Shown here in pieces: positions 13,765 to 42,625 of a stretch of DNA of 64,000 bases. Every line of letters begins with the position of its first letter. The first letter of the stretch is position 1. The DNA is from Desulfarculus baarsii DSM 2075 (lineage in GTDB: Bacteria > Desulfobacterota > Desulfarculia > Desulfarculales > Desulfarculaceae): NCBI RefSeq assembly GCF_000143965.1, contig NC_014365.1:1825501-1889500 (forward strand), in the 5' to 3' direction. The notes below the pieces were generated by a model. That model had not been told where the DNA came from, made no database searches, and was given only the letters and a program-made list of their open reading frames with translations. The position numbers and the translations under genes were made by a program.

Positions 13765-16247
<2,483 letters not shown>

Positions 16248-16248
16248 C

Positions 16249-17127: not shown

Positions 17128-17131
17128 GGCC

Positions 17132-17773: not shown

Positions 17774-18804
17774 AGCACCTGCTGAACACGCTGTTTCTGA
17801 CCCGTGACGACTTGCAATTGGTCAAGGACGGCCAGAGCCTTTTGGTCAAGCAGGGCAATGAAGTGCTCTTGCGCAAGCCCGTGCACATGCTGGGCGGGGT
17901 GATCAGCCTGGGCCGCTCGTACATAACGCCCCAGGCCATGGCCTTTTGCGCCGAAAACGATGTGGCCCTGAGCCTGCTTTCGCCCAACGGCCGTTTCCTG
18001 GCCCAGGTGCGCGGGCCGGTCTCGGGCAATGTCTTGCTGCGCCGGGCCCAGTTTCGCCTGGCCGACGACGACAAGGCGGCCAACAACATCGCCCAAGCAG
18101 TGGTGGCGGCCAAGCTGGTCAACTGCCGGGGATTGCTGCGGCGGGCGGCCCGCGATCAAACCCTGGAGGCCGACGCCGAGGCCCTGGCCCTGGCCGCCGA
18201 TCGGCTGGCCCAGGTGCTGCGCCGGCTGGAGGGCGCGCAATCGCTGGAGGAGACGCGGGGCCTGGAAGGCGAGGGCGCGGCCGCCTATTTTGGCGTGTTT
18301 GGCCGGCTGATCAGCGCCCAGGGCGATGGCTTCGCCTTTAACGGGCGCAATCGCCGCCCGCCGCGTGACGCGGTCAACGCCTTGCTTTCGTTCGCCTATA
18401 CGCTGCTGGCCCACGACATTTCCGGCGCGTGCCAGGCGGTTGGGTTGGATCCGCAAGTTGGCTTTCTGCACCGCGACCGCCCTGGCCGGCCCAGCCTGGC
18501 CCTGGATCTGATGGAGGAGATGCGGCCGATGATGGTCGATCGGCTGGTGCTGAACCTGATCAATCTGCGCCAGGTGCGGGCCAAGGGCTTTGCCATCGAG
18601 CCGGCGGGCGGCGTGCGCATGGATGACGACACGCGCAAGGGCCTGTTGGTGGCCTATCAAGAGCGCAAACAAAAAGAGATTCATCACCCGGTGTTGGACG
18701 AAAAAATCCCGTTGGGCCTGTTGCCGCACGTGCAGGCGATGTTGCTGGCGCGGCATATCCGGGGTGATCTGCCCGGTTATCCGGCGCATTTTCACAAGTT
18801 CTAG
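17770..18804 (+). CDS. cas1: Cas1 integrase
   Basis: The ATG at 17770 follows GGAGGAG and overlaps the cas4 stop (ATGA). It gives 344 residues beginning MKHLLNTLFLTRDDLQLVKD. The C-terminal helical domain has the metal-binding residues in EGEGAAAYFGVFG, the His/Asp region LLAHDISGACQAVGLDP and HRDRPGRPSLALDLMEEMRP. With Cas2 it integrates new spacers at the leader-first repeat. All expected motifs are present, so adaptation is probably functional, in line with the very long array. Confidence 0.97.
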   Translation: MKHLLNTLFLTRDDLQLVKDGQSLLVKQGNEVLLRKPVHMLGGVISLGRSYITPQAMAFCAENDVALSLLSPNGRFLAQVRGPVSGNVLLRRAQFRLADDDKAANNIAQAVVAAKLVNCRGLLRRAARDQTLEADAEALALAADRLAQVLRRLEGAQSLEETRGLEGEGAAAYFGVFGRLISAQGDGFAFNGRNRRPPRDAVNALLSFAYTLLAHDISGACQAVGLDPQVGFLHRDRPGRPSLALDLMEEMRPMMVDRLVLNLINLRQVRAKGFAIEPAGGVRMDDDTRKGLLVAYQERKQKEIHHPVLDEKIPLGLLPHVQAMLLARHIRGDLPGYPAHFHKF

Positions 18805-18813
18805 GAGCGGCCG

Positions 18814-19104
18814 ATGATGATTTTGGTCTGCTACGACGTGGAGACGGTTTCGCCGGGCGGCCAGCGGCGTCTGCGGCGGGTGGCGCGGCATTGCATGAAT
18901 TATGGCGAGCGCGTGCAAAATTCGGTGTTCGAGTGTCTGTTGGACCCGGCGCAGTGGGTGCGTTTCAAGGCCAAGCTGGAGGGTGAGGCGGACTTGCAGC
19001 GCGACAGTCTGCGCTACTATTTTTTGGGCGCCAACTGGCGACGGCGGGTGGAGCACGTGGGGGCCAAGCCGGTTTTGGACCCTGACGCGCCGCTGGTGCT
19101 TTAG
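18814..19104 (+). CDS. cas2: Cas2 adaptation protein
   Basis: The 96-residue ferredoxin-fold protein starts MMILVCYDVETVSPGGQRRL, the usual Cas2 beginning (YDVET). The GGAG nine bases before the first ATG supports this start, and the second ATG is three bases on. It ends with DPDAPLVL. Cas2 dimers bridge two Cas1 dimers in the integrase. It is the last cas gene, 176 bases before the first repeat. Confidence 0.96.
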   Translation: MMILVCYDVETVSPGGQRRLRRVARHCMNYGERVQNSVFECLLDPAQWVRFKAKLEGEADLQRDSLRYYFLGANWRRRVEHVGAKPVLDPDAPLVL

Positions 19105-19280
19105 CGCGAAGCGCAAGTGATGGGCAAAATGCCGGTGGGTTCGCGCATGGCTATTGAGCTGAAATCGTGGCTGTTTTGCGTTGCGCTGTTTTGCTGCGGC
19201 CGCTTTTTGCGTCTGAATGATGTCGGTTCGCGGTTTCGGCTTGATATGTTCATAAGTTTTAGTGTGTTATGATGGTGTAT
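19105..19280 (+). promoter_or_regulatory. CRISPR leader
   Basis: This 176-bp non-coding region between cas2 and the first repeat is T-rich and less GC-rich than its surroundings. Its last 40 bases are AT-rich, with TTGATA at 19241-19246 and TATGAT at 19268-19273. That spacing (21) is too long for a standard promoter, so the array promoter is not pinned down. Position, base composition and the intact first repeat make this the leader where Cas1-Cas2 inserts new spacers. The array is then transcribed on the + strand. Confidence 0.8.
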
Positions 19281-22200
19281 GTCGCCCCTCACGCAGGGGC
19301 GTGGATTGAAACGCCAGCCTGACGGCGGACCTGAAAGAGGTCCAGGGTCGCCCCTCACGCAGGGGCGTGGATTGAAACCCCGGACTGCGGCGCGTATCAG
19401 GTGATGACATTCGAGTCGCCCCTCACGCAGGGGCGTGGATTGAAACTCGAGCTCGATCTGCTTGAGCTTGGCCGTGTCGCCGGTCGCCCCTCACGCAGGG
19501 GCGTGGATTGAAACACCGCGGCTACGAGAAGGCCCCGCAGCAGCCGGGTCGCCCCTCACGCAGGGGCGTGGATTGAAACGGATACACTCTGCCGCCGGCG
19601 GCCGTGCCGGCGGGTCGCCCCTCACGCAGGGGCGTGGATTGAAACTTTGGTGCGCACTGCCTGGACGCCGCGGCATGCAGTCGCCCCTCACGCAGGGGCG
19701 TGGATTGAAACAATATCTGGTCCTCGCGGCGATCCGTGGCCCAGTGTCGCCCCTCACGCAGGGGCGTGGATTGAAACCCCCATCCTGCTCAGCAGATCGG
19801 CCACGATGGCGTCGCCCCTCACGCAGGGGCGTGGATTGAAACCGGGTCTCAATCGCTGCCATGCGCGCCGCCCAGGCGTCGCCCCTCACGCAGGGGCGTG
19901 GATTGAAACTGGAAGGTCGCCAGCCTTGGCGGCGGGCTTGAGGTCGCCCCTCACGCAGGGGCGTGGATTGAAACGCTGGCGTTGGCAAGGCCCTGATGGC
20001 CCATCCCTTGGTCGCCCCTCACGCAGGGGCGTGGATTGAAACCAGCGTCAACGCCGACACGTTGCCGGCGCTGCGGGTCGCCCCTCACGCAGGGGCGTGG
20101 ATTGAAACGGTCCAGCAGATGTACAAATCAGTGTGTGCCGCGTCGCCCCTCACGCAGGGGCGTGGATTGAAACCGGTGACGGTGTAGCCCTCCTCCTCGG
20201 GCTGCAAGTCGCCCCTCACGCAGGGGCGTGGATTGAAACCCGCCTAACTGGTACTGGGCGGGACGGCCGATCAGGTCGCCCCTCACGCAGGGGCGTGGAT
20301 TGAAACTGGTAGCCCCTGGCGGCCTTGACCCGACCGCCGGGTCGCCCCTCACGCAGGGGCGTGGATTGAAACTTTAGAGGGGAGCCTCCTGCTGTGAGAT
20401 GTTACGGTCGCCCCTCACGCAGGGGCGTGGATTGAAACGATCAGGTGGCCCATAAGCTGAATGGAGACAAGTCGCCCCTCACGCAGGGGCGTGGATTGAA
20501 ACGCCACGTCCGCCGAGGCCGGGCCCAGCAGGCTCGGTCGCCCCTCACGCAGGGGCGTGGATTGAAACGGAGCCCGCGCCCTTGCGGCGCGCGCATAAAA
20601 GCCGGTCGCCCCTCACGCAGGGGCGTGGATTGAAACCCAACTGATCGGCCGCCGACCGCGCGACAAACGCGTCGCCCCTCACGCAGGGGCGTGGATTGAA
20701 ACTCTTCATGCGCTGGCCTCCTTCACAAGCCGGTATGTCGCCCCTCACGCAGGGGCGTGGATTGAAACACGAGTTGTGCCACCTCATGCCCGACGAGGGT
20801 GGGTCGCCCCTCACGCAGGGGCGTGGATTGAAACGAAGATGGTGCAGCCGCTTAAGCTGGTGGACGCGTCGCCCCTCACGCAGGGGCGTGGATTGAAACT
20901 TGGCGGTGGTTGAGGCCGCCGCGTGGCGGCAGTCGCCCCTCACGCAGGGGCGTGGATTGAAACGGCATCATGCCAGAGGCGGCCAGCACTTCGGACAGTC
21001 GCCCCTCACGCAGGGGCGTGGATTGAAACGACGCCTGGGTCAAGATGACCACCGATTACATCCAGTCGCCCCTCACGCAGGGGCGTGGATTGAAACCTTC
21101 ATGGTCGTCACCAGCTCTTGCATGGTGGCGTCGCCCCTCACGCAGGGGCGTGGATTGAAACGCGTTTGGGGTGTCGCTTGATCGACTTTGAAAACGTCGC
21201 CCCTCACGCAGGGGCGTGGATTGAAACTGATCGATCGGGTCGTGTACCCACAAATGCTTAAGTCGCCCCTCACGCAGGGGCGTGGATTGAAACGGCGGGA
21301 CGGGGTCGTCTGGCTCTGGCCTCAATGTCGCCCCTCACGCAGGGGCGTGGATTGAAACGATGGTAAGCCCTATGACGACGACTTCGCGGCCGGTCGCCCC
21401 TCACGCAGGGGCGTGGATTGAAACTCGTGTATACAATGCGCCAATTGGTGGCGGCCTCGTCGCCCCTCACGCAGGGGCGTGGATTGAAACACAACAAGAC
21501 CAAGAACTATCACAACACCAACGGGTCGCCCCTCACGCAGGGGCGTGGATTGAAACGAGACAGCATTTCCGCTGTCGCACATGCAAGACCCGTCGCCCCT
21601 CACGCAGGGGCGTGGATTGAAACGGCCACGTTCGCCGACGCCCAAGCGGTCGGGTCGTCGCCCCTCACGCAGGGGCGTGGATTGAAACTGCAGTTCGTTC
21701 TGGATCAGATACGCCGGGTTGAGTCGCCCCTCACGCAGGGGCGTGGATTGAAACGGGTGCACCCCGACACCATGCGGGAGTGGCTGCGGTCGCCCCTCAC
21801 GCAGGGGCGTGGATTGAAACTGCGCGAGATTCACGACAGCCTGGACATGACCCCGTCGCCCCTCACGCAGGGGCGTGGATTGAAACCGATTAATCGTAAT
21901 TATTGGTTGACTTATTGCGGTGTCGCCCCTCACGCAGGGGCGTGGATTGAAACGCTGGAAGACCCCAATTCGTGGGGCCGGCCCAGTCGCCCCTCACGCA
22001 GGGGCGTGGATTGAAACCCCACGGCCCAACACAGATTGGCGGCCAGGACGGGTCGCCCCTCACGCAGGGGCGTGGATTGAAACCGCTCCTTCCCGCCCGC
22101 CAGGACGGCGGGCGCTGGGTCGCCCCTCACGCAGGGGCGTGGATTGAAACGTAGTATTTTGTTGACACGTGATTACTGCTATGTGTCGCCCCTCACGCAG

Positions 22201-25200
22201 GGGCGTGGATTGAAACCGCGGCGGGGGCGGCGGCCAGCTTGGCGCTGGAAAGTCGCCCCTCACGCAGGGGCGTGGATTGAAACTCGGCGCGGGTTGGCGG
22301 CGGCGTGGGCTGGGCGGGTCGCCCCTCACGCAGGGGCGTGGATTGAAACATCAGCCGGGCGCTCAATCCGGCGCGCTTGCCCGTCGCCCCTCACGCAGGG
22401 GCGTGGATTGAAACATGTGGGAGTCGATCGATCGCGGCACCCTATGCGGGTCGCCCCTCACGCAGGGGCGTGGATTGAAACGCATTGAAAAGCGGCGGGG
22501 CCAGCCAAAGCTGACCGTCGCCCCTCACGCAGGGGCGTGGATTGAAACGGTTCCAATCGTATCTATTGAGTGTGTTGGTGTAGTCGCCCCTCACGCAGGG
22601 GCGTGGATTGAAACCAACGTGAGCAAGGCGGCCGCCGTCAACAACACCGGTCGCCCCTCACGCAGGGGCGTGGATTGAAACTGGTCTGGCCGGCTGCGCC
22701 GTCACCGCCGCGCCGAGTCGCCCCTCACGCAGGGGCGTGGATTGAAACGCGTTGACCTCCGTTCACCGATCGTGCGTTAATAGGTCGCCCCTCACGCAGG
22801 GGCGTGGATTGAAACTCGATTTAGGCCAACGCTCGTGGCCACCGTCTTGGTCGCCCCTCACGCAGGGGCGTGGATTGAAACTAGGCCCAATGGAGATGAC
22901 TGGATGAAGATCAAGTCGCCCCTCACGCAGGGGCGTGGATTGAAACCCACGAACACACGCTTGGGGGTTTTGATCTTCGCGTCGCCCCTCACGCAGGGGC
23001 GTGGATTGAAACAAGATATAAATCAAGCACTTAGAGATAAATATGGAGTCGCCCCTCACGCAGGGGCGTGGATTGAAACAGGCGCTGACGTCGGCCCGCC
23101 GCATGGATATCTGGTCGCCCCTCACGCAGGGGCGTGGATTGAAACGGCTACTTCCAGCAGAACCTTCAGAAGATCACCAGTCGCCCCTCACGCAGGGGCG
23201 TGGATTGAAACTGTTCCTCCGTTTTCGCCCCCAGCAGGGGGGCGAGTCGCCCCTCACGCAGGGGCGTGGATTGAAACGAGGAACTGGCCAGCGCATCAAA
23301 AATCAGCCTCAGTCGCCCCTCACGCAGGGGCGTGGATTGAAACCAACCCTCCAGCCGCGCGAGCAGCCGCGCGATGGGTCGCCCCTCACGCAGGGGCGTG
23401 GATTGAAACGTTGCTCCATCAGGTGACGGTGTAAAAGTTTAGTGTCGCCCCTCACGCAGGGGCGTGGATTGAAACTTTTCAGGTTCGCGGCGGCATAGGC
23501 GTCCACCGCGTCGCCCCTCACGCAGGGGCGTGGATTGAAACCGCGGCCCGGGTGAAGATGGGGAAGTCGCGCACCGTCGCCCCTCACGCAGGGGCGTGGA
23601 TTGAAACTGTGGCTTGCCTCATCGGCGCTGGGGGTGCCACCCGTCGCCCCTCACGCAGGGGCGTGGATTGAAACCGCCCCCTGCAAAACACCAAGCAGGG
23701 ACGTGCCAGTCGCCCCTCACGCAGGGGCGTGGATTGAAACTTTGTTCGTGCGGCGAAGGCCTCTGCCAGCAGAGGTCGCCCCTCACGCAGGGGCGTGGAT
23801 TGAAACTTCAAGTGGGTGTTGGTGAGCCGCGAGGAGTTCGGTCGCCCCTCACGCAGGGGCGTGGATTGAAACGCCTACCCGCCAGCCGGCGTCGGTCAGG
23901 TGCTCCGTCGCCCCTCACGCAGGGGCGTGGATTGAAACTCGTTGCCGGCGAAGGTGTCGCTGGCGCGGCGTTGGTCGCCCCTCACGCAGGGGCGTGGATT
24001 GAAACTGTTCCGCCATGCGGCCGAAAAATGCCCAAAAAGTCGCCCCTCACGCAGGGGCGTGGATTGAAACATATTTCAGATTATGGGGAAAATGAAAATG
24101 AATAAGTCGCCCCTCACGCAGGGGCGTGGATTGAAACAAGAGAAGATGAAGATGAAGATGAAGAAGGGGGCGTCGCCCCTCACGCAGGGGCGTGGATTGA
24201 AACGGTTCCGGACGGTGTTCCGCGCAGGCCGGTCATGGTCGCCCCCTCACGCAGGGGCGTGGATTGAAACGCAGCATCTTTCATCACGTCATTCAAAGAC
24301 GCCAAGTCGCCCCTCACGCAGGGGCGTGGATTGAAACACCTGTATTCGGCCGCCGATTCCGCAACCGAAGTTAGTCGCCCCTCACGCAGGGGCGTGGATT
24401 GAAACACCCTTATCCTTTGATTGAACATCAATGTAAATAGGTCGCCCCTCACGCAGGGGCGTGGATTGAAACGTTTTGACCTCCTATACATCCGGCAGTC
24501 GTGTTCGTGTCGCCCCTCACGCAGGGGCGTGGATTGAAACCAAGAGGCGGTGAAAGACCTGCGTGTAGCCATCGGGTCGCCCCTCACGCAGGGGCGTGGA
24601 TTGAAACTCCCAGCATTCGCCGGAGCAAACCCACGTGCCGTCGTCGCCCCTCACGCAGGGGCGTGGATTGAAACGCTGAAAGGCCAGCAGCATGCCGCCC
24701 GTGCGCTCGGTCGCCCCTCACGCAGGGGCGTGGATTGAAACTTGACGGCATGGCCATCTACAACGCCCTGAAGTGTCGCCCCTCACGCAGGGGCGTGGAT
24801 TGAAACCTGCCTGGGCCGTGGCGCTCTGCTGCAGCATGGGTCGCCCCTCACGCAGGGGCGTGGATTGAAACGTCTCATTGCTAGAGATATCGCCCCAGAA
24901 TTGCCGTCGCCCCTCACGCAGGGGCGTGGATTGAAACGGTTACCCTGGCTGTGGCCACCATGCTATCAACGTCGCCCCTCACGCAGGGGCGTGGATTGAA
25001 ACTACAGTACTAGTCCATATCCTTCTACTTTGCTTATGTCGCCCCTCACGCAGGGGCGTGGATTGAAACTCCCGGAGTCGGCAAAATGGTCAGAACGGGA
25101 TGTCGTCGCCCCTCACGCAGGGGCGTGGATTGAAACCATCGCAAATGGCTTGACTATGGAAGTAATCGCGGGTCGCCCCTCACGCAGGGGCGTGGATTGA

Positions 25201-28200
25201 AACGCCACACGTACCAGCACCGGATTCGGTGTTGGGCGTCGCCCCTCACGCAGGGGCGTGGATTGAAACTTGATCGTTGACCGCCGTGTCCAGCGCGGCT
25301 TGCGTCGCCCCTCACGCAGGGGCGTGGATTGAAACTTCCTGTTCAGCCTCTGCCTCTGTCACCTCGGCAGTCGCCCCTCACGCAGGGGCGTGGATTGAAA
25401 CTGGCGTTGGCGGCCACAATGCGCAGGTTGTCCGGTCGCCCCTCACGCAGGGGCGTGGATTGAAACGTGACCACCAGCACCTGTTCCATTTTCTCTCTCC
25501 CGTCGCCCCTCACGCAGGGGCGTGGATTGAAACTGGCCCCATTTAACTACGGCCCCAACTGGGGCCATGTCGCCCCTCACGCAGGGGCGTGGATTGAAAC
25601 GGCAGGTCAGGGTCAGCATCGCCTGGCCCGGATAGTCGCCCCTCACGCAGGGGCGTGGATTGAAACCGTCATGCCGTGGCATGACGGGGATAATTATTTG
25701 GTCGCCCCTCACGCAGGGGCGTGGATTGAAACCGCCGTGACAACGCGGCTTACTTCCGCGATGGCGTCGCCCCTCACGCAGGGGCGTGGATTGAAACCGC
25801 GGCGGGGGCGGCGGCCAGCTTGGCGCTGGAAAAGTCGCCCCTCACGCAGGGGCGTGGATTGAAACCTAATTAAATTCAATTTATTGATAAACTTAATTGT
25901 CGCCCCTCACGCAGGGGCGTGGATTGAAACGATCTTGATTGTGTATTATATGGCCACCTACGCACGTCGCCCCTCACGCAGGGGCGTGGATTGAAACGGA
26001 AAATCGCTTGCGGTTGGCGCGTCAGGATACAGTCGCCCCTCACGCAGGGGCGTGGATTGAAACGGGCTCGCACTTTTTGGCATGGCCATGAGCCAACCGG
26101 TCGCCCCTCACGCAGGGGCGTGGATTGAAACCACCACGACTGGCGCAGTACGTCGAGCATGCCGGGTCGCCCCTCACGCAGGGGCGTGGATTGAAACATA
26201 TCGGGACTATCCCGCATTCCACGGCCGCCTCCAGTCGCCCCTCACGCAGGGGCGTGGATTGAAACGTCGAGTTCCTTGCCGGCCAGCACATCGCCCGCGT
26301 GTCGCCCCTCACGCAGGGGCGTGGATTGAAACTTCAGTTCTCGCGTCTTCAGCGCCCGCAGCCGCTCGTCGCCCCTCACGCAGGGGCGTGGATTGAAACA
26401 GCGACATCGAGGCGCTAAAAACGCTCAACGTGCGTCGCCCCTCACGCAGGGGCGTGGATTGAAACGCCGCGCTGCGTAAGGCTGCCGCCGAGGCGCCCGA
26501 GTCGCCCCTCACGCAGGGGCGTGGATTGAAACGCAGGACGCAAAGCGCGAAGCCGAGGATGGCCCACGTCGCCCCTCACGCAGGGGCGTGGATTGAAACT
26601 GAATCTGGGGCCGTCGGCACGCCAAACGGCATAAAGTCGCCCCTCACGCAGGGGCGTGGATTGAAACCAGCACCGTGATAATGTGCCATTTGACCTGCTC
26701 CGTCGCCCCTCACGCAGGGGCGTGGATTGAAACTTCGCCAGGCCGCGCGGATAAATGGACAGTCGCGTCGCCCCTCACGCAGGGGCGTGGATTGAAACGC
26801 TCATTGGCGATCGGCCAATGGTTGGCGGATCGCGTCGCCCCTCACGCAGGGGCGTGGATTGAAACATGGGGTACACCTCAGCATAGTGCTTGTACACACG
26901 TCGCCCCTCACGCAGGGGCGTGGATTGAAACCCCACGTCCACGCTGCTGGGCGTCAACGCCGCCGGGTCGCCCCTCACGCAGGGGCGTGGATTGAAACCC
27001 GAGGTATTGCGTGTTCAACGAGCGCGGCGAAAAGTCGCCCCTCACGCAGGGGCGTGGATTGAAACCGGCTGCTAAATCACACTCAACACGGCCTTTCCGG
27101 GTCGCCCCTCACGCAGGGGCGTGGACTGAAACTGGTACTTTTCGTTCCGGCGGGTCTATCCCCATGGGTCGCCCCTCACGCAGGGGCGTGGATTGAAACA
27201 CAAATGGTTTTGAATATGAATAATCTAAATAGGTGGTCGCCCCTCACGCAGGGGCGTGGATTGAAACAGGGCCTCGTGCGTGGCCTCGTTGTCGTTGTCT
27301 GTGTCGCCCCTCACGCAGGGGCGTGGATTGAAACGGGGCAATCCGCCGTCGTGGAACCCAATGTAGCCATCGTCGCCCCTCACGCAGGGGCGTGGATTGA
27401 AACAGCGCAATGAGCGTCGACGCCTCGGTCTGGGCCAGGTCGCCCCTCACGCAGGGGCGTGGATTGAAACACCTGCTGTGGGCCAGCCCGGATTGCAAGC
27501 ACTTGTCGCCCCTCACGCAGGGGCGTGGATTGAAACGCCGTTGGGGCGGGCTTATGCCGCTGACATGAAGTCGCCCCTCACGCAGGGGCGTGGATTGAAA
27601 CCTCATCATCGCCTCACTGCTTCTGGCCACGGCGGGTCGCCCCTCACGCAGGGGCGTGGATTGAAACACCGCCGCCATCAGCGTGTCGGCAGGAAGATAA
27701 GGTCGCCCCTCACGCAGGGGCGTGGATTGAAACCTATATAGAGTAGGTAGTAAATATGCTGTATATAGTCGCCCCTCACGCAGGGGCGTGGATTGAAACC
27801 ACTAGTACAAACAATCCATAGAAAGGATAAGAGTCGCCCCTCACGCAGGGGCGTGGATTGAAACGCCGTCAGGTCGGCCACGGAGCCGCTCTCCCTCATG
27901 TCGCCCCTCACGCAGGGGCGTGGATTGAAACTCCTGCGCGCCGACGGCTAGCGTAACCTTCCTGAGTCGCCCCTCACGCAGGGGCGTGGATTGAAACATA
28001 AATGCTGCATGGGCCGAACCGCATTACGTCATGTCGCCCCTCACGCAGGGGCGTGGATTGAAACACGGGCGGATTGCACGACATAGTCATAGCCCACGTC
28101 GCCCCTCACGCAGGGGCGTGGATTGAAACTGAATACGCGCAACCTGAGTGGGGGCGGAAACCCGTCGCCCCTCACGCAGGGGCGTGGATTGAAACGCCGC

Positions 28201-29227
28201 CGTCGCCGTGGGGACTCATGGCCTTGGCGTCGCCCCTCACGCAGGGGCGTGGATTGAAACCATGCCATACGCCCGCGTGTACCACGCCTTGATTAGTCGC
28301 CCCTCACGCAGGGGCGTGGATTGAAACACTTGCGGTTGCGGATCGAGCGCGGGGAGGCTCGCGGTCGCCCCTCACGCAGGGGCGTGGATTGAAACGCGGG
28401 CCATTCGCTGGTTTTGCGAATGGCACCAGACGTCGCCCCTCACGCAGGGGCGTGGATTGAAACGCGCGTCACGCCGGACGGCCACGCCACGGTTGTGGTC
28501 GCCCCTCACGCAGGGGCGTGGATTGAAACTTTTTGATGGGGCCGGTTGGATCGTGCATGATCCCGTCGCCCCTCACGCAGGGGCGTGGATTGAAACTTAT
28601 AGTACTAGTCCATATAAGCAAAGTAGAAGGAGTCGCCCCTCACGCAGGGGCGTGGATTGAAACATGGTCATGCTCCTGTACGGCCCAACCGGCACACCGT
28701 CGCCCCTCACGCAGGGGCGTGGATTGAAACTGCTTCTGGACGGGCGCTTGACGATGACGCGCAAGGGTCGCCCCTCACGCAGGGGCGTGGATTGAAACCG
28801 TTTCGTGGACCCACCTCGGGACAGGCGCTTGGGTCGCCCCTCACGCAGGGGCGTGGATTGAAACGGGATGGTGAAAAATGAACGTGGTTGCAATCCGGTC
28901 GCCCCTCACGCAGGGGCGTGGATTGAAACGTCAACGAGCGCCCGGTGCGGCAAAAGATTTCATGTCGCCCCTCACGCAGGGGCGTGGATTGAAACACACG
29001 ATGGCCGTCAACCCCAGGTGGGAGCTTGGTCGCCCCTCACGCAGGGGCGTGGATTGAAACACTATTCCTCCACTTCTGGCCATTTCACGCCAAGTCGCCC
29101 CTCACGCAGGGGCGTGGATTGAAACATGCCGTCCTCGTTCAGGCCCAGGGCTTTGTAGTGGTCGCCCCTCACGCAGGGGCGTGGATTGAAACGCCCTCGT
29201 GGCTGCTGGTGCTGCCCTGCTGATTAG

Positions 29228-29419
<192 letters not shown>

Positions 29420-29948
29420 TAGAGCAGGTCGCCCCTCACGCAGGGGCGTGGATTGAAACGGAGGAAATGTTTGCCAAGCGTGTTCGGCAATTCGTCGCCC
29501 CTCACGCAGGGGCGTGGATTGAAACTCGAATGCCGTAGGCGATGTTGCCCCAGTAGCGGGTCGCCCCTCACGCAGGGGCGTGGATTGAAACCCCACGCAA
29601 GAGCAAATTTATCCACCAGCGACAGGTCGCCCCTCACGCAGGGGCGTGGATTGAAACGCGGTGGCGAGCAACCCCTTAGCCTGAACCAACGGGTCGCCCC
29701 TCACGCAGGGGCGTGGATTGAAACCCTTGCCAGCCGCTCGATCATCTCCCGCGCCGCCGTCGCCCCTCACGCAGGGGCGTGGATTGAAACCCTCTCCCCG
29801 CACGGCCATCACGGTCAAAACGTGGTCGCCCCTCACGCAGGGGCGTGGATTGAAACGAGCAGACCGGCATCAGCATGGTGGCCGCCCGCGGTCGCCCCTC
29901 ACGCAGGGGCGTGGATTGAAACAACGGCCCAGTCTGGCAACGAAGTAA

Positions 29949-30068
<120 letters not shown>

Positions 30069-30947
30069 TAACCAACCCTTGTACCTACGGGGTCGCCCCT
30101 CACGCAGGGGCGTGGATTGAAACATAAACAACAGTCTGCCCCAAAGGAGTCCAAGTGTCGCCCCTCACGCAGGGGCGTGGATTGAAACGTTGAAACTATC
30201 GGTGAATGTGTTGCCGCCCACGCGGTCGCCCCTCACGCAGGGGCGTGGATTGAAACCGGCCACAACCTGGCTCTACGCCGAGCCGGCCCAGTCGCCCCTC
30301 ACGCAGGGGCGTGGATTGAAACCGGTGGTGGGAGGGCTGGTCGTGTCAATGATCAGGTCGCCCCTCACGCAGGGGCGTGGATTGAAACGCACCCACGGGC
30401 GTTGATCCGAGCCAACATCGTCGCGTCGCCCCTCACGCAGGGGCGTGGATTGAAACTCGACTGCCGCCTGGGAAAGAGCGGCCGATGACGGTCGCCCCTC
30501 ACGCAGGGGCGTGGATTGAAACCATTCGTCACTCTCCTCTCCTCCAAATCCGCCAACAGTCGCCCCTCACGCAGGGGCGTGGATTGAAACCGGCCGCGCG
30601 GCGGCTAGCCTCGCGCGCCGTCAGCGTCGCCCCTCACGCAGGGGCGTGGATTGAAACCGATGCTGTTGCCTGGCTCTGCGTTAGGAGCAGGGTCGCCCCT
30701 CACGCAGGGGCGTGGATTGAAACACGCCGCCGGGAATCTCCGCCTTAATGGCGAAGTTGTCGCCCCTCACGCAGGGGCGTGGATTGAAACGACGACTGGT
30801 CCGCCGTCGGCACGGTGACGGTGTTGGTCGCCCCTCACGCAGGGGCGTGGATTGAAACATTGCCACCCCGTCCCAGCCGGTGGTATCTGGATGGTCGCCC
30901 CTCACGCAGGGGCGTGGATTGAAACTGGCGCACGCTGGGCAAGGTGA

Positions 30948-31118
<171 letters not shown>

Positions 31119-32253
31119 TGAAACAGTGACCTGGCGGCCCTGGTCGTCGAAATATGTTTGTCGCCCCTCACGCAGGGGCGTGGATTGAAACGCCCCAGAG
31201 ATCACGGTATCGCTGGGCAACGTGGTCGCCCCTCACGCAGGGGCGTGGATTGAAACGACGCCGACAACAAAATCGAGTTCAAGCTGACCCGTCGCCCCTC
31301 ACGCAGGGGCGTGGATTGAAACCTGGATGGACGGCGCGGCAATGGCGGCCGTGGCCAGTCGCCCCTCACGCAGGGGCGTGGATTGAAACTGCAGTTCGTT
31401 CTGGATCAGATACGCCGGGTTGAGTCGCCCCTCACGCAGGGGCGTGGATTGAAACGCCCAGGGTCGCGCCGGCGGCCGACGGCATGCCGAGTCGCCCCTC
31501 ACGCAGGGGCGTGGATTGAAACGCCCACGGCGTGCGGCGCGAGATGGATATCCGCGGTCGCCCCTCACGCAGGGGCGTGGATTGAAACGGGGCATGCACT
31601 GCCCCGAGGAGGCCGTGGCCGGAGTCGCCCCTCACGCAGGGGCGTGGATTGAAACTGCTTGTATATTCCTCGCCGCTGTCTTTGATCAGGTCGCCCCTCA
31701 CGCAGGGGCGTGGATTGAAACTGGTGCCGGCGGAGGGCTTGGCCATCGTGCCGGGTCGCCCCTCACGCAGGGGCGTGGATTGAAACCTGGACGCACGGGC
31801 CGAGTTGCAGCCGGCCTACAGTCGCCCCTCACGCAGGGGCGTGGATTGAAACCGCCCTATGTCTATCAAGTGCGCAAGGATGAGTGCGTCGCCCCTCACG
31901 CAGGGGCGTGGATTGAAACCAGGGTCTACGACCACCAATTTCGCAAGGGACTGGGTCGCCCCTCACGCAGGGGCGTGGATTGAAACAAAAACTCCTGGCC
32001 CAGGCGCACACGATGACCAAGTCGCCCCTCACGCAGGGGCGTGGATTGAAACGCTTCGGTAAAATCAGCTAACCGCTAATAATTACAGTCGCCCCTCACG
32101 CAGGGGCGTGGATTGAAACCTGGAGATGGGCAAGGAATACCTGGGGCAGTTCCTGTCGCCCCTCACGCAGGGGCGTGGATTGAAACTGATCCGCCGGCCA
32201 TTGACCCTACGCTCCTCGAACGTCGCCCCTCACGCAGGGGCGTGGATTGAAAC

Positions 32254-32355
32254 ATGGGCTTTGATCAAGCGGAAGAACCGCTGTGCATGTCGCCCCTCAC
32301 GCAGGGGCGTGGATTGAAACATGGGCTTTGATCAAGCGGAAGAACCGCTGTGCAT
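32254..32355 (+). repeat. Tandem duplicate of one spacer
   Basis: Two adjacent spacers beginning at 32254 and 32321 are identical (both begin ATGGGCTTTGATC). This is a 67-bp tandem duplication of one repeat-spacer unit, as expected from slippage or unequal crossing-over. Confidence 0.95.
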
Positions 32356-33287
32356 GTCGCCCCTCACGCAGGGGCGTGGATTGAAACGGCCGTCAACCGC
32401 ATCCTGGCGCGGTCTTGGCGCGGTCGCCCCTCACGCAGGGGCGTGGATTGAAACCCCTGTCGTTCCGGGTGTGTTCCGCCCGCCGGCTACGTCGCCCCTC
32501 ACGCAGGGGCGTGGATTGAAACGGATACACCCTGCCGCCGGCGGCCGTGCCGGCGGGTCGCCCCTCACGCAGGGGCGTGGATTGAAACGCCCTGGTGGAG
32601 TCGGAGACGCGCCGGGGCCGGCGTCGCCCCTCACGCAGGGGCGTGGATTGAAACATGGCGAAGTTGAACCGGGAGTCCGACTTCCGGTTGTCGCCCCTCA
32701 CGCAGGGGCGTGGATTGAAACGCGCAGCGGGTGATAGTCCAGGAATGCCACGTCCGTCGCCCCTCACGCAGGGGCGTGGATTGAAACTTGGCCAGGTCGG
32801 CGTGCAGGGCCAGCCTGCGCGCGTCGCCCCTCACGCAGGGGCGTGGATTGAAACTGGCCGGGTTGGTGGGCGAGGAGCGGTGCTCCAGTCGCCCCTCACG
32901 CAGGGGCGTGGATTGAAACGAAATTCGACCGATATCGTTCACCCAACAGCGACGTCGCCCCTCACGCAGGGGCGTGGATTGAAACCCGGCGGCGTTGCTG
33001 ACGATCTGGGCCGCGCCCCGTCGCCCCTCACGCAGGGGCGTGGATTGAAACCCATGTCGGCGGGGCGTCTGGCCCCGGCGTGGGCGTCGCCCCTCACGCA
33101 GGGGCGTGGATTGAAACCGGTGGTGGGGGGGCTGGTCGTGTCAATGATCAGCGCGTCGCCCCTCACGCAGGGGCGTGGATTGAAACTGGGTTGAGCAGAG
33201 GACCCGTCGTCCTTCGCCACGTCGCCCCTCACGCAGGGGCGTGGATTGAAACTCGCCAGCGTCCGGGGGGCGGAGTAGATGTCCCAC

Positions 33288-33848
33288 GTCGCCCCTCACG
33301 CAGGGGCGTGGATTGAAACTTTGTCGTCTGGGTCTGACCCTCGCGCCAGAAGGTCGCCCCTCACGCAGGGGCGTGGATTGAAACCCTGCCAAAGTCGTAG
33401 ATAATGCGCGGATTTTCGGGTCGCCCCTCACGCAGGGGCGTGGATTGAAACATGGCCAACCTGGTGGGCGACTTGGCCGAGATCGAGTCGCCCCTCACGC
33501 AGGGGCGTGGATTGAAACCTGCCATATCGGACAGAGTTCTCAGAGCCGTTCTGTCGCCCCTCACGCAGGGGCGTGGATTGAAACTGCCCTGGTCGATTTA
33601 AGCATCGTATCCCTCCTCGGTCGCCCCTCACGCAGGGGCGTGGATTGAAACGTCGGTATACACTTTCGTGATAGTGCTGGTCGTGTCGCCCCTCACGCAG
33701 GGGCGTGGATTGAAACTTTGTCGTCTGGGTCTGACCCTCGCGCCAGAAGGTCGCCCCTCACGCAGGGGCGTGGATTGAAACCCTGCCAAAGTCGTAGATA
33801 ATGCGCGGATTTTCGGGTCGCCCCTCACGCAGGGGCGTGGATTGAAAC
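33288..33848 (+). repeat. Direct duplication of a two-spacer block inside the array
   Basis: Segment 33288-33451 (two spacers with flanking repeats) recurs at 33685-33848, offset 397 bp, with four units in between. The identical pair in the same order points to recombination within the array. Confidence 0.93.
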
Positions 33849-36800
33849 TTGTCACCAAAACATCGTTATCCCATGTCGTGCCGTCGCCCCTCACGCAGGG
33901 GCGTGGATTGAAACTCACGCGCGCGTACGTGCGCACGTGCCTTACGCGTCGCCCCTCACGCAGGGGCGTGGATTGAAACTTCTGACCTGACACTTGTGAA
34001 GTATTGCACTTAGTCGCCCCTCACGCAGGGGCGTGGATTGAAACTCAATCGGTTGTTTTTTGGCCGCCACGCTTTTCGCGTCGCCCCTCACGCAGGGGCG
34101 TGGATTGAAACATGGATATGACGCGCTATGCAAAAAACCTGATGAGTCGCCCCTCACGCAGGGGCGTGGATTGAAACATTAATGACTGTTATGCAGGCAT
34201 TCAAAGTGTTAAGTCGCCCCTCACGCAGGGGCGTGGATTGAAACGCCAACCGCGGACTTCGGTCCATGCAGAGGAGGGTCGCCCCTCACGCAGGGGCGTG
34301 GATTGAAACTCGTATAGCTTAGTTAACCTCTTTCCCTCACCTTGTCGCCCCTCACGCAGGGGCGTGGATTGAAACACAGCCTGGACAGCACGGGCGTCTC
34401 GTGGTACAAGTCGCCCCTCACGCAGGGGCGTGGATTGAAACTCTATTATCGATTCTAGCATGTGAGGTGCTTAGGGTCGCCCCTCACGCAGGGGCGTGGA
34501 TTGAAACATTACCTGATCCAGTAACCACACCGCCCTCTCTTCGGTCGCCCCTCACGCAGGGGCGTGGATTGAAACTTGTGGTTCCGTTTCCGACCGCGAC
34601 AATCACGCTTGGTCGCCCCTCACGCAGGGGCGTGGATTGAAACCTGCAACCACTATCGGCGCGTCGCCGCCGGCCAAGTCGCCCCTCACGCAGGGGCGTG
34701 GATTGAAACGTCGCCGCGCTCACGCCGCCCGAGTTGGCCGCCGTGTCGCCCCTCACGCAGGGGCGTGGATTGAAACTCGTTGGGGTTGAGTTTGGCGTAA
34801 AGGGTCGAAACGTCGCCCCTCACGCAGGGGCGTGGATTGAAACCACAATGGCGGTTTGTCGCAGCCCGGCGCTACATGTCGCCCCTCACGCAGGGGCGTG
34901 GATTGAAACCTCGTTGATAGTATTCATCTCCCGCGCGCCAACGGGTCGCCCCTCACGCAGGGGCGTGGATTGAAACCAAACCAAAGACACGCCGGTGCAG
35001 GGCCTAATTCGGTCGCCCCTCACGCAGGGGCGTGGATTGAAACCCGATGACTGCGCCGGGAACAGAGCCCGGCCCGTGTCGCCCCTCACGCAGGGGCGTG
35101 GATTGAAACTCGCCGGGGCTACAAGATCGTGGACCGCATGGGCACGTCGCCCCTCACGCAGGGGCGTGGATTGAAACCTTCGCGGGAAGCGGAAGACGAC
35201 GCTGCCGGGGCGTCGCCCCTCACGCAGGGGCGTGGATTGAAACGCCTACCTGCGCCTTGGCTTGGACGGTGCCACCACGTCGCCCCTCACGCAGGGGCGT
35301 GGATTGAAACTACCGCACGGCCTGGGCCGTGATGTCGAAGCCAGTCGCCCCTCACGCAGGGGCGTGGATTGAAACGCACCCACGGGCGCTGATCCGAGCC
35401 AACATCGTCGCGGTCGCCCCTCACGCAGGGGCGTGGATTGAAACCCCACGCAAGGGCGAATTTATCCACCAGCGACAGGTCGCCCCTCACGCAGGGGCGT
35501 GGATTGAAACTTGGGGAATGGTGCGCCGGACACGACCCCTGGCGAGTCGCCCCTCACGCAGGGGCGTGGATTGAAACCGTGCGGGCAGACGACTCCAGCG
35601 CATTTGGGGAGGTCGCCCCTCACGCAGGGGCGTGGATTGAAACAAGTCACCAACGGCGGCACCACCGGCACGCCGAAGTCGCCCCTCACGCAGGGGCGTG
35701 GATTGAAACTATCAATATTTGGCCCCGACACCCGGTGCGGGATGAGTCGCCCCTCACGCAGGGGCGTGGATTGAAACACGGCGACCAGCCAGCGCCGCTG
35801 GTGGGCGTCGTCGTCGCCCCTCACGCAGGGGCGTGGATTGAAACAGGTGCACCTTGTCGCGGCCCAGGGCCTCGGCCATGTCGCCCCTCACGCAGGGGCG
35901 TGGATTGAAACACTTGAGCGCGGCTGGCGGGGCCGACAACTTGACGTCGCCCCTCACGCAGGGGCGTGGATTGAAACTTGGGTCAGGCCAATGGCCTCGC
36001 GGATGGCCCGGTCGCCCCTCACGCAGGGGCGTGGATTGAAACGTTTTTTCCGAACCTCACTGGCTTGAGTCTTCGGTCGCCCCTCACGCAGGGGCGTGGA
36101 TTGAAACGTGCTGGTGTTGCTCCCGCGCCAGTTTGAGCAGCAGTCGCCCCTCACGCAGGGGCGTGGATTGAAACGCATCACAGCCTACACGCCCCTCCGG
36201 CGCAGTCCGGTCGCCCCTCACGCAGGGGCGTGGATTGAAACCATGCTCACACCCTCATTGGCATGACGACGTGCTTGTCGCCCCTCACGCAGGGGCGTGG
36301 ATTGAAACATGCCCACGGCAAGGCATGGTCCGCTGGATTCCACGTCGCCCCTCACGCAGGGGCGTGGATTGAAACTTAGCGCCTCGATGTCGCTGAACAC
36401 CGCTACGCGCGTCGCCCCTCACGCAGGGGCGTGGATTGAAACAACCGCGGGCGGCCGCGATCCGAGCGCTTGCCGGTCGCCCCTCACGCAGGGGCGTGGA
36501 TTGAAACAGGAAACGCTGTCCAAGGCCGTTGACGGACTTGGGTCGCCCCTCACGCAGGGGCGTGGATTGAAACTCGGGCCGTAACGCTGACTGATGTCGT
36601 CGGCCACGGTCGCCCCTCACGCAGGGGCGTGGATTGAAACTGCAATCCGAATCCGCCAGCGATAACCGTGAATTGTCGCCCCTCACGCAGGGGCGTGGAT
36701 TGAAACGCCGGCAACATCGTGGACTGGCGGGGCATGACCCTGGTCGCCCCTCACGCAGGGGCGTGGATTGAAACGTTGGGCCTAATGACGGCCAAAACTG

Positions 36801-38668
36801 CCCCGCCTTGTCGCCCCTCACGCAGGGGCGTGGATTGAAACTTCGCCGCCCGCCCGCGGCCCGAGCGCCTGGCGGCGTCGCCCCTCACGCAGGGGCGTGG
36901 ATTGAAACTCAGCCATACGCGGCCCATTGCCAAGGCCTTCCTGGTCGCCCCTCACGCAGGGGCGTGGATTGAAACTGGGCGATGTCCAGCGAGTTGCGGA
37001 TCACCACGTCGCCCCTCACGCAGGGGCGTGGATTGAAACTCCAGCCACAGCTCGCGGATGGCGCTCATCGCCGTCGCCCCTCACGCAGGGGCGTGGATTG
37101 AAACAGGTGCACCTTGTCGCGGCCCAGGGCCTCGGCCATGTCGCCCCTCACGCAGGGGCGTGGATTGAAACGTTGTGAACGAAAACCACATTTTGCGCGT
37201 TATGCGTCGCCCCTCACGCAGGGGCGTGGATTGAAACTGGTTGACCGCTACGAGGGCGACGTCCGCGACATGGTCGCCCCTCACGCAGGGGCGTGGATTG
37301 AAACAAGGACAGGTCTGGCAAGCTGCGGCGAAGCATTCGAGTCGCCCCTCACGCAGGGGCGTGGATTGAAACTCGGGCGGGTTTATGACTCGCTGCATGG
37401 CCGGTGTCGCCCCTCACGCAGGGGCGTGGATTGAAACTCCGATGACTGCGCCGGGAACAGAGCCCGGCCCGTGTCGCCCCTCACGCAGGGGCGTGGATTG
37501 AAACAGCAACTCCATCACCGGGTTGAGTTTGAGCGGGGGTCGCCCCTCACGCAGGGGCGTGGATTGAAACGCGCAGATGGTGGCGCAGATTGCCAGCATT
37601 TGGGTCGCCCCTCACGCAGGGGCGTGGATTGAAACGGCGACGAAGAAGAGGACGACGCCGAGACGGCGCTCGTCGCCCCTCACGCAGGGGCGTGGATTGA
37701 AACTTCTTCAAGTCCTGGGGCGACTTTTTCCGCGCCAGGTCGCCCCTCACGCAGGGGCGTGGATTGAAACTCTGCGACATGGCCGGGGTGAAGCACGGCG
37801 ACAGGTCGCCCCTCACGCAGGGGCGTGGATTGAAACACGAGCGTCAACGCTCAAGGGGCTGGGGGCAAAGGGTCGCCCCTCACGCAGGGGCGTGGATTGA
37901 AACTTATTGGAGGTGCGGCCATGTTCAAAAAGATCGCCGTCGCCCCTCACGCAGGGGCGTGGATTGAAACATGGACATGGGCACAGGCAAAAGCCGCACG
38001 CTGATGTCGCCCCTCACGCAGGGGCGTGGATTGAAACTTCCAACGGACCTGACCAACCATTTTGTGATCGGGTCGCCCCTCACGCAGGGGCGTGGATTGA
38101 AACCCTTAATCATATCAACTACTTTTGTTGGCCTGTCGTCGCCCCTCACGCAGGGGCGTGGATCGAAACTTTTGGGGGGGGCTAGCCCTGGGCCGCGTCT
38201 GGGTCGCCCCTCACGCAGGGGCGTGGATTGAAACTTTTGTCGTTCGCCTGCGTGAGGGGCTATATTGGTCGCCCCTCACGCAGGGGCGTGGATTGAAACC
38301 CGTGACTACAAGAGCGCCCCCGGCTTTTGGACGTCGCCCCTCACGCAGGGGCGTGGATTGAAACGGATAGACGTCTGCCGGGTCATCTCGCCGAAAGTGC
38401 GTCGCCCCTCACGCAGGGGCGTGGATTGAAACCGCGATGTAGGCCAGCAGCGCGGCAATTTCGCCCCAGTCGCCCCTCACGCAGGGGCGTGGATTGAAAC
38501 CCCGAACCCGTGTTGATCGTCCGGGCTCATCTTACGTCGCCCCTCACGCAGGGGCGTGGATTGAAACCGCGCCAAGTACGGGCGGAAGCACGTCGTCAGC
38601 GTCGCCCCTCACGCAGGGGCGTGGATTGAAACTCGCCACCAAAGGCCCTCGTCGGCAGGCGGCGTCAG

Positions 38669-39293
38669 GTCGCCCCTCACGCAGGGGCGTGGATTGAAAC
38701 GTGGTATTCGGCCAAGGCCTCGGGCATGCTGTCGTCGCCCCTCACGCAGGGGCGTGGATTGAAACATAGGCCGCCTGGATGCTGTCGCCAGCCGTGACGG
38801 TCGCCCCTCACGCAGGGGCGTGGATTGAAACTTCGTTTGATCATGGGAGGATAGCGGGCGTCCCAGTCGCCCCTCACGCAGGGGCGTGGATTGAAACAAC
38901 GAAGAACTGGGAGACGAAAACAGCGCCCTCCGTCGCCCCTCACGCAGGGGCGTGGATTGAAACGTCGTTCATGGCCGTGACGGTGTGCATCGGCTCCCGT
39001 CGCCCCTCACGCAGGGGCGTGGATTGAAACGTGGTATTCGGCCAAGGCCTCGGGCATGCTGTCGTCGCCCCTCACGCAGGGGCGTGGATTGAAACATAGG
39101 CCGCCTGGATGCTGTCGCCAGCCGTGACGGTCGCCCCTCACGCAGGGGCGTGGATTGAAACTTCGTTTGATCATGGGAGGATAGCGGGCGTCCCAGTCGC
39201 CCCTCACGCAGGGGCGTGGATTGAAACAACGAAGAACTGGGAGACGAAAACAGCGCCCTCCGTCGCCCCTCACGCAGGGGCGTGGATTGAAAC
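38669..39293 (+). repeat. Direct duplication of a four-spacer block inside the array
   Basis: The segment 38669-38963 (five repeats, four spacers) recurs at 38999-39293, an exact offset of 330 bp. One unrelated spacer lies between the copies. Spacer order and lengths are identical, which fits unequal recombination between repeats rather than new acquisition. Confidence 0.95.
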
Positions 39294-40480
39294 AACCACG
39301 ATAGCCCCTTGGTTGAGCTTCTCCTCCAGTCGCCCCTCACGCAGGGGCGTGGATTGAAACTGTGGTAGCTCAATTGGTCAGAGCAGGCGACTTAGTCGCC
39401 CCTCACGCAGGGGCGTGGATTGAAACTTGCGGTAGATGTTTCATGGGCCCCCCCCCCACCACGTCGCCCCTCACGCAGGGGCGTGGATTGAAACCATGGC
39501 GACACGCCGCAAACCGCGCCGGCATCTGAGTCGCCCCTCACGCAGGGGCGTGGATTGAAACATTGCCATGCTTGTTTTGGGCGCGGCCGCCCTTTTGTCG
39601 CCCCTCACGCAGGGGCGTGGATTGAAACGCCGCCGAAATGCCATACGAGATCGTCTACTTAGTCGCCCCTCACGCAGGGGCGTGGATTGAAACTAAAGCT
39701 CGACCCTCGGCAAATGTTCCCTGAGCGAGTCGCCCCTCACGCAGGGGCGTGGATTGAAACACTTGAGCGCGGCTGGCGGGGCCGACAACTTGAGTCGCCC
39801 CTCACGCAGGGGCGTGGATTGAAACTTACCGGCCGCCGTCGCCCTTCGCCGCCCACAGCGGTCGCCCCTCACGCAGGGGCGTGGATTGAAACCTGGTGGG
39901 GGCCATTGTCGGCGGCGGCATGGGCGGTCGCCCCTCACGCAGGGGCGTGGATTGAAACTCGGCCGCGCGGCGGCTAGCCTCGCGCGCCGTCAGGTCGCCC
40001 CTCACGCAGGGGCGTGGATTGAAACCAGACCGGCGAGTGGGTGATCCAACGCCGCGCCGTGTCGCCCCTCACGCAGGGGCGTGGATTGAAACTCGAATTC
40101 AAGGGTCACCGTGTCCATGTCGGGGCGTCGCCCCTCACGCAGGGGCGTGGATTGAAACAGAAAGGCTTGGAAGTCGCGGGCGGAATCGAGCCGTCGCCCC
40201 TCACGCAGGGGCGTGGATTGAAACACCGATCTGCAATTACGGTTCATGACGCCACAGACGTCGCCCCTCACGCAGGGGCGTGGATTGAAACGCCCCGTGC
40301 GGTCTGGGGAATCGCCGATAATGGCTAGTCGCCTCTCACGCAGGGGCGTGGATTGAAACTTCGCGCGCGCGTGTACGCATATATTTGGTATTCTGGGTCG
40401 CCCCTCACGCAGGGGCGCGGATTGAAACCGGCGATAGAAAACAAGCGCCGGCCCGCATCCAGAGGTCGCCCCTCATTGAA

Positions 40481-40783
40481 TGTTTTGTGGGGGGCGGCGC
40501 ACGCCTTCGACTATGATTGGGTCTCCACAACGAAGGGCGTACAGGAAGCGAAACATTAGCTAGAAAGCCACGGCGCACGGGGGCTTGTCCCGTGCAATGA
40601 ATCGTTCAGCTACCGCTGCTGTGGCATCATCGCGGTGATATATGTCGGACAAAACGGATTAGGCAAGCCGGGCATAATGCCGAGGGCCAAGTTTGCCCAC
40701 CCCTAGACGGTAGTTTTGAGCATATAGTAATGCGACATGATTTTTTGCCACATATGAGGCTCAACCAAAATAGAGAGGACCAA
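40481..40783. other. Intergenic region between array end and autotransporter
   Basis: After the truncated last repeat comes about 300 bp without a recognised gene. The frame from 40474 to 40559 is open but tiny and has no known features. A hairpin (GCACGGG at 40575-40581 with CCCGTGC at 40589-40595) lacks a U-run. The stretch before 40784 is more AT-rich than the average and probably holds the autotransporter promoter; GAGAGGA at about 40773 is its ribosome site. Confidence 0.5.
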
Positions 40784-42625
40784 ATGTCTAAACGATTTGC
40801 CCTGGCGATTGTATTGCTTGCCTTCATCGCGCTGTGCACGTCCGGCGCGGCTGGCGCGGCTGGGTTCAGCCAGTTTGTCGGACTTGGCGACAGCACCCTG
40901 GACACCGGGTATCTCCGCTATCACACCTCGGGAGACGCGGAATTAGATAGCGCGATCGCCGACGCCGTTGCTCTGGGCGCCAATGGTGGATGGGCTGGCA
41001 ACGGGGTGATGAACACCACCATCCTGGCGGGCAAGTTTGGCCTTGACGCCGCCACGATCGGCGACGGCGGAACCAACTACGCCGTCGGCGGAGCCTACAC
41101 CACGATGGCCAGGCTAGGCCTCGTCCCCTCTACCCAACAGGTCGCCAACTATCTCGCATCCGTGGGCGGCGTCGCCAATCCCTCCGCGCTCTACATCGTA
41201 AGTTCCGGCAACAACGATCTGATTTATGCTTCCCAGAACGTCGTCTCCCCCAACTTTCTGCACGAGCAAGCAATCGCCTGGGCGGCGGCGGTGGCGCGTC
41301 TGCAAGCGGCTGGCGCCCGCGTCATCTTGGCGCCCAATTCTTACTATTGCTGCACCCTCGCGGGCTTGGGTGGCGTGATTCCCAGCGACAAAGCCGCCGC
41401 TTACGCGCAGGCAACGCTTTACGGGGTGGATATATGGCGGAGCATGACCGCGGCTGGCGTGCGCTACATCCCCGCCGATCAGAAAAGCCTGATCGAATAT
41501 GTGATAAAAAACCCCACTCTTTTTGGGTTTACCGCAACTTCGGTGTTGTCGTCCAGTGCGCCCGCTTCCGTGCCAGCCGTTTTGGCCATTCTCACCCCTC
41601 TCCAGCAGCAAACCTTCCTATTTATAGATGGTCACCATCTAACCACGGCTGGCCAAACCATTGTCGCCGATTACAACTACAACCTGCTGGCCGCGCCCAG
41701 CCAGATATCCTTGATCACCGAAGGCGCGGTGCAGGGTGGTTTGGCGCGCACGGCCACTATTCAGCGACAGATCGATCTGTCCTGGCGACATCGCGGACCA
41801 GGCGGCGTCAATGTGTGGACCAGCGTCGGAGCCTATAGACAGAAAATCAAGAACGCCTCGGGCTTCCCCACCGCTTCGGGCGTCCCCTTCAGCGGGTCGG
41901 CGGGCGTGGATTATCAGACCACGCGCGGTCTTATCATGGGCGCGGCCCTTACGGCGGGCAGTCAGAGGCAGGACTTTTCCACCGGTGGCCATTTCGATCA
42001 GACAGACGGGGCCCTGAGCCTGTATGCCGCCTACAAGATCGGCTGGTTATGGGGAAACGCCGTGGCTTCCTACGGCCAGTTTAGCGACAAAATCACGCGT
42101 CAAGCGCCTCTTGGAATCTTAATCGATCATAACGACTCCGACACCGACGGGCATTCTCAAGCGCTCGCCTTGCGCGCCGGCGGCGATATAAAGATCGGAC
42201 CTTTCACCACCGGCCCAGTGGCGGGCGTGGTGATGCAAAAAGTGTGGCTCGACAGCTTCAGGGAAACCGGCGGCACCGGGGTCACGGCCCTGTGGTTTGA
42301 CAGCATCACGCGGGATTCCCTTGTCAGCCAGCTAGGCTGGCGCTTATCGCTGGAACTGGGTGATTGGCAACCATTCGCGGAAGCGAACTGGAGCCACGAA
42401 TGGGCCGAAAGGGACCGCAGCGTAACGGCCGCGCTCACCACCGTGGAGGCCCCGTCCTATTCCATGGCCGCCGTACCGGTGGCTTCCGATTGGGCCACCA
42501 TGTTGCTAGGCGCTTCTTATAGGCTCAATTCGCGGGTGATGCTGCAAGGCTCGGCTTCGGCGGTGGCCTTCAATCACGAGGTGACAAGCTACGGTGGGGA
42601 GTTGAGCGTGAACTTCAATTTCTAG
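40784..42625 (+). CDS. GDSL/SGNH esterase autotransporter (EstA-like)
   Basis: ATG 40784 after GAGAGGA gives 613 residues; the open frame begins at 40730. A signal peptide ends near GAAGAA (about residue 26). The SGNH hydrolase passenger has block I GDSTLDTGY (nucleophile Ser37), GGTNYAVGG, SSGNNDLIY (Asn) and IDGHHLTTAGQ (Asp and His). From about residue 330 the protein becomes a 12-strand-type autotransporter barrel and ends SVNFNF with terminal Phe. The esterase should be displayed on the outer membrane. Base composition is somewhat less GC-skewed than in neighbouring genes, and it sits between two pieces of CRISPR repeat, so insertion at this site is possible. Confidence 0.9.
   Translation: MSKRFALAIVLLAFIALCTSGAAGAAGFSQFVGLGDSTLDTGYLRYHTSGDAELDSAIADAVALGANGGWAGNGVMNTTILAGKFGLDAATIGDGGTNYAVGGAYTTMARLGLVPSTQQVANYLASVGGVANPSALYIVSSGNNDLIYASQNVVSPNFLHEQAIAWAAAVARLQAAGARVILAPNSYYCCTLAGLGGVIPSDKAAAYAQATLYGVDIWRSMTAAGVRYIPADQKSLIEYVIKNPTLFGFTATSVLSSSAPASVPAVLAILTPLQQQTFLFIDGHHLTTAGQTIVADYNYNLLAAPSQISLITEGAVQGGLARTATIQRQIDLSWRHRGPGGVNVWTSVGAYRQKIKNASGFPTASGVPFSGSAGVDYQTTRGLIMGAALTAGSQRQDFSTGGHFDQTDGALSLYAAYKIGWLWGNAVASYGQFSDKITRQAPLGILIDHNDSDTDGHSQALALRAGGDIKIGPFTTGPVAGVVMQKVWLDSFRETGGTGVTALWFDSITRDSLVSQLGWRLSLELGDWQPFAEANWSHEWAERDRSVTAALTTVEAPSYSMAAVPVASDWATMLLGASYRLNSRVMLQGSASAVAFNHEVTSYGGELSVNFNF

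Follow-up and report, generated by a model that had tools for sequence, protein, structure and literature searches.

A type I-C CRISPR array of 318 spacers with recurrent spacer pairs in Desulfarculus baarsii

Introduction

For the 164 bacterial type I-C arrays in a 2017 survey of 811 bacterial class I arrays, the main text gives a mean of 43 spacers, a median of 30, a third quartile of 56, and a maximum of 318 (PMC5575924). The longest array in CRISPRCasdb in 2019, with 587 spacers (PMC7145573), is that of Haliangium ochraceum DSM 14365, and a metagenomic maximum amounts to 1,131 spacers (PMC8026048). In the type I-C system of Legionella pneumophila Toronto-2005, interference and primed acquisition have both been shown to be active, and its spacers protect along the whole array, with a trend to weaker protection with distance from the start (PMC5071653).

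Here we describe the type I-C locus of Desulfarculus baarsii DSM 2075, analyzed in a window of 64,000 nucleotides (NC_014365.1, positions 1,825,501 to 1,889,500; the coordinates given below are those of the window unless indicated otherwise). This locus shares with Legionella the same seven cas genes, a 32-nt repeat ending in GTGGATTGAAAC, and possibly the type I-C PAM TTC, given as GAA on the other strand in Legionella (PMC5071653); the Legionella array differs in having 43 spacers and another repeat stem. Like H. ochraceum, D. baarsii carries a single very long array, although with 318 instead of 587 spacers.

Results

The array occupies positions 19281–40428 on the + strand and comprises, by direct count in the window, 319 full repeats of 32 nt (GTCGCCCCTCACGCAGGGGCGTGGATTGAAAC), 314 of them unchanged, four with one substitution, and one with a one-base insertion. 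The 318 spacers bounded by full repeats on both sides are 32–37 nt each and follow one another without a gap or an irregular unit; 309 are distinct, the remaining nine being additional copies. The trailer end (40429–40475) consists of a 36-nt last spacer (40429–40464) and the initial 11 nt of a truncated 320th repeat (40465–40475). The 320 repeats and 319 spacers of the original prediction are therefore obtained when the truncated terminal repeat is included, and become 319 and 318 when full repeats alone are counted. The array sits within a one-contig chromosome of 3,655,731 bases, and a chromosome-wide search tolerating up to three mismatches gave 319 repeats on the + strand, none on the − strand, and none with a reversed-pattern control; of these 319, 318 lie in the array and one is an orphan repeat at 42756, while the repeat with the insertion, at four mismatches, is missed. 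With 318 spacers, 309 of them distinct, the array is one of the exceptionally long arrays of more than 300 spacers.

Seven cas genes lie upstream of the array and co-directional with it, in the type I-C order cas3-5-8c-7-4-1-2 (11522–19104). They are cas3 (11522–13747), encoding Cas3c with HD and helicase domains (PADLOC Cas3c, E = 1.8e-217; Pfam HD, DEAD, and Cas3-like_C_2); cas5c (13789–14454; Pfam Cas_Cas5d, 6.7e-43; PADLOC Cas5c, 1.1e-71); cas8c/csd1 (14343–16247, the real start probably being at about 14457; Pfam Cas_Csd1, 5.7e-187, over the full profile, 1–559/559; PADLOC Cas8c, 1.4e-167); cas7c/csd2 (16174–17127, the real start probably being at about 16260; Pfam Cas_Cas7, 1.2e-110; PADLOC Cas7c, 2.9e-118); cas4 (17132–17773; Pfam Cas_Cas4, 1.5e-23; PADLOC Cas4c, 5.4e-82); cas1 (17767–18804; Pfam Cas_Cas1, 1.9e-94; PADLOC Cas1c, 4.4e-141); and cas2 (18814–19104), all on the + strand. 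The six genes from cas3 to cas1 match type I-C models of Pfam and PADLOC along their length. The 96-aa cas2 product was assigned from an open reading frame at the cas2 position and has tblastn matches, 58–76% identical and adjoining cas1, in six other I-C loci. The predicted intact type I-C set is thus complete, with six genes recognized by their profiles and cas2 by its position. The assignment to type I-C follows from the signature effector Cas8c (Csd1), the order of the seven genes with a Cas5c fitting I-C models and no space for cas6 in the operon, and a 32-nt palindromic repeat ending in GTGGATTGAAAC with spacers of about 34 nt, the same repeat form being present in other I-C loci and in Legionella I-C (PMC5071653). 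Between cas2 and the first repeat is a 176-bp leader (19105–19280, + strand), the expected entry point of new spacers, in which a scan for a sigma-70 consensus promoter found none.

A cas6 gene of the chromosome is located outside the operon, in a type III (III-D-like) locus about 5–18 kb beyond the window end (L067; G000:C1:1889400-1909000). This locus contains Cas10, several Csm3/Cas7 proteins, a CorA-like protein, a reverse transcriptase–Cas1 fusion, Cas6, and a TIR-domain protein, together with two arrays of 8 and 6 repeats. One chromosome therefore holds two systems, type I-C with 318 spacers versus type III with 12, and the spacers of the two have none in common.

A repeat of this form is found in 55 of 395 genomes spread over the phylum, among which D. 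baarsii ranks first with 315 strict repeat matches, followed by 132 and 115, a rough ranking as draft genomes break arrays. Set beside the published I-C figures in the main text of the survey (median 30, third quartile 56; PMC5575924), this bears out the prediction of a single, exceptionally long array. On the fitted curve of the array-length modelling paper (PMC8026048), the probability of an array of at least 318 is about 1e-5 to 7e-5. The I-C maximum in the 2017 survey is exactly 318 spacers, equal to the number of full spacers here, and is probably the D. baarsii array itself, the organism not being named in the main text (PMC5575924). The array is accordingly a size outlier with precedent, known already in kind and size.

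An independent I-C array of 313 repeats, 310 of them exact, is present in the metagenome-assembled genome 'Deltaproteobacteria bacterium 4_1_July_SF_Bin22' (G441; L010, L047, and L048). This genome resembles D. baarsii in its I-C cas set, near-perfect 32-nt repeat, block duplications, and recurrent spacers with anchored 5′ ends, but Cas5 and Cas7 are only about 28–31% identical, two repeat positions differ, and no spacers are in common; its I-C effector set is complete but diverged. At about 520–541 kb of its contig C4 (L047/L048), an eight-spacer block is duplicated with a 49-nt hybrid spacer at the junction. The identical 32-nt repeat of D. baarsii also occurs in two genomes from a different family of this phylum (L044:1-364 in G113:C9; L045:9559-9590 in G333:C1), where either the locus or the repeat may have been transferred horizontally.

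Comparison of all spacers with one another revealed 20 rows of spacer pairs with at least 15 shared nt, compared with 0.12 such rows on average for Markov-1 spacers. Local duplications account for seven of the rows; the 13 left are 11 distant pairs (5/200, 37/183, 45/99, 108/258, 156/244, 167/209, 168/243, 171/312, 238/274, 250/269, and 251/309) and the pair 87/141, which is counted twice as partly inverted. Spacers 87 and 141 have 15 nt in common, beyond which they carry one sequence in opposite orientations, as might be expected if their target had an invertible or palindromic segment. Nine of the 11 distant pairs show altered ends, point mutations, or opposite strands, and two (37/183 and 250/269) are exactly identical. 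In the same-strand distant pairs, the 5′ ends are equal or 1 nt apart and the 3′ ends are variable; four distant pairs have one or two point differences each. Spacers 108 and 258 come from opposite strands and overlap, each revealing the upstream flank of the other: in this one internal case, protospacer 108 is directly preceded by GTTC, which contains the TTC known as the I-C PAM, and protospacer 258 by TTT. Judged from these sequences, the distant pairs look as if related phages had been sampled repeatedly and independently at the same PAM-anchored sites, rather than as if units had been copied, because anchored 5′ ends with varying 3′ ends and point differences are what PAM-anchored re-sampling predicts.

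Could the like spacers instead be rearranged copies that mutated later, with no independent acquisition? Local block duplications do occur in the array, and the exact identity of 37/183 and 250/269 would suit such an origin. Rearrangement, however, should move each unit entire, its ends intact, and the block duplicates are indeed unaltered, whereas in most distant pairs the 3′ lengths are unequal or the 5′ end is shifted by 1 nt, with SNPs in some as well; the spacers next to the distant pairs are not in common, and the pair 108/258 overlaps on opposite strands. We therefore consider later-mutated copies unlikely, and independent re-sampling the better account of the distant pairs.

Search for targets gave no exact protospacer in the isolated phages, plasmids, IMG/VR, and related genomes, as searched. 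The whole array had no match in isolated phages and plasmids in a near search, and seven recurrent spacers used as exact patterns had none in IMG/VR. Targets are commonly missing in anaerobes, as few of their phages have been sampled. A distant search of the whole array against phages gave one 37-bp match (94.6%), between spacer 124 and a phage cytosine methyltransferase gene, which has no TTC upstream and was therefore taken as a homologue rather than the source. Matches of the array outside CRISPR loci in 63 genomes of the class are short, conserved-motif or GC-rich, and lie in host genes (the TGGTTGTPK motif of AMP-binding-like enzymes, topoisomerase, and others), and were rejected as protospacers. 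The match of spacer 74 in a probable phage replication gene is a low-complexity stretch and was likewise set aside, and two matches in the own genome outside the CRISPR region (25–30 nt, E of about 0.009) were taken as chance, self-targeting not being claimed. The spacers presumably originate from phages.

Past the array, 2.2 kb beyond the truncated repeat, is a remnant (42702–42787, + strand) composed of a degenerate half-repeat (42702), a 39-nt spacer-like stretch, and the orphan repeat (42756–42787, 1 mismatch) in the same orientation as the array. The gene of a GDSL-lipase autotransporter (40730–42625, + strand; Pfam Lipase_GDSL and Autotransporter) separates the truncated terminal repeat from the remnant; no full-length relative was found among 19 other genomes of the family. 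This gene was probably inserted into the old (trailer) end of the array, an empty site not having been found.

The decayed and apparently split trailer end, and the lack of exact matches in known phages, could be read as marks of a relic, that is, of a system past acquiring or interfering. Such a reading is quite improbable, since none of the seven cas genes is shortened, the repeats nearest the leader carry no change, and just five of 319 repeats are altered.

The five variant repeats are a repeat with a 1-nt insertion (24239–24270), two with one substitution each (27101–27132 and 38138–38169), and the final two full repeats, each mutated, within 40328–40428, all on the + strand. Each variant is private, none being found in a neighbour, and the final two full repeats are both mutated, as an age gradient would lead one to expect. 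Since the leader-proximal repeat is copied at every acquisition (PMC8047081), identical repeats are the default, and they are ordinary in long I-C arrays: 132 of 132 are exact in another genome (G001) and 310 of 313 in G441. The original prediction had taken repeat identity to imply active acquisition or continual homogenization by recombination. Ordinary polarized acquisition, whether past or present, is enough to explain the identity, and the need for homogenization is not supported. Continual gene conversion among repeats over 21 kb could appeal to the recombination or slippage that gives exact block duplications, but private singletons show that no variant has spread, the two at the trailer end are predicted by age without repair, and first-repeat copying already accounts for an identity that other long I-C arrays equally show; we thus judge homogenization very unlikely and unneeded.

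Recombination is visible in the array only as a few block duplications, namely those of spacers 293–296, repeated as 298–301 (38701–39261), and of 212–213, repeated as 218–219 (33320–33816), and a tandem duplication of a single unit, spacer 196 = 197 (32254–32355), all on the + strand. That misassembly expanded a much shorter array is hardly conceivable: arrays are difficult to assemble, and one 4-spacer and one 2-spacer block are exactly duplicated, but misassembly cannot invent the sequence of 309 distinct spacers among 318, the array is embedded in a one-contig chromosome, and a separate assembly (G441) holds its independent 313-repeat array. Because misassembly repeats or drops units and cannot create distinct spacers, the array has at least 309 units, and because just nine spacers are extra copies, its real length is at most nine below 318. 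The array of D. baarsii is real.

Discussion

With very high probability, the array is the memory of a complete type I-C (Cas8c) system and grew through ordinary polarized acquisition while phages attacked repeatedly. Its polarity, processing, and interference are inferred from established I-C biology, by which Cas4–Cas1–Cas2 would take about 34-nt pieces of invader DNA beside a 5′-TTC PAM and insert them at the leader end next to cas2, the first repeat being copied every time. The array would be transcribed rightward and the transcript cleaved by Cas5c into crRNAs, with which Cas5-8c-7 and Cas3 would destroy matching DNA. The array would have become so long because spacer gain exceeded loss over a long period while related phages attacked recurrently; local slippage or recombination added the few block duplications, and the oldest (trailer) end is decaying, probably having been split by the inserted gene.

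The recurrent spacers lead to a more tentative suggestion, that the array records, in readable order, one host's conflict with a few phage lineages over time, in which deep spacers no longer protect and old memory is largely dead weight. We regard this as possible but rather doubtful. The same PAM sites appear re-sampled after tens to about 150 later acquisitions, twice exactly, from which it would follow that the deep spacers no longer protected. The weaker distal protection in Legionella (PMC5071653) fits the re-acquisition of sites already deep in the D. baarsii array. If true, the loss of deep protection would be due either to too little crRNA or to escape.

As a discovery, the array contributes little, since published statistics already include an I-C array of exactly this size. 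It does offer a clean one-contig case close to the observed upper array size, and it suits the question of a length ceiling because the 21-kb locus exceeds the 18,651 nt that the array-length modelling paper (PMC8026048) cites for the longest prokaryotic transcript. The new detail of most use is the set of 11 distant recurrent spacer pairs, and two separate I-C arrays of 310 or more units with re-sampled protospacers would allow a direct test of functional memory depth and of the length ceiling.
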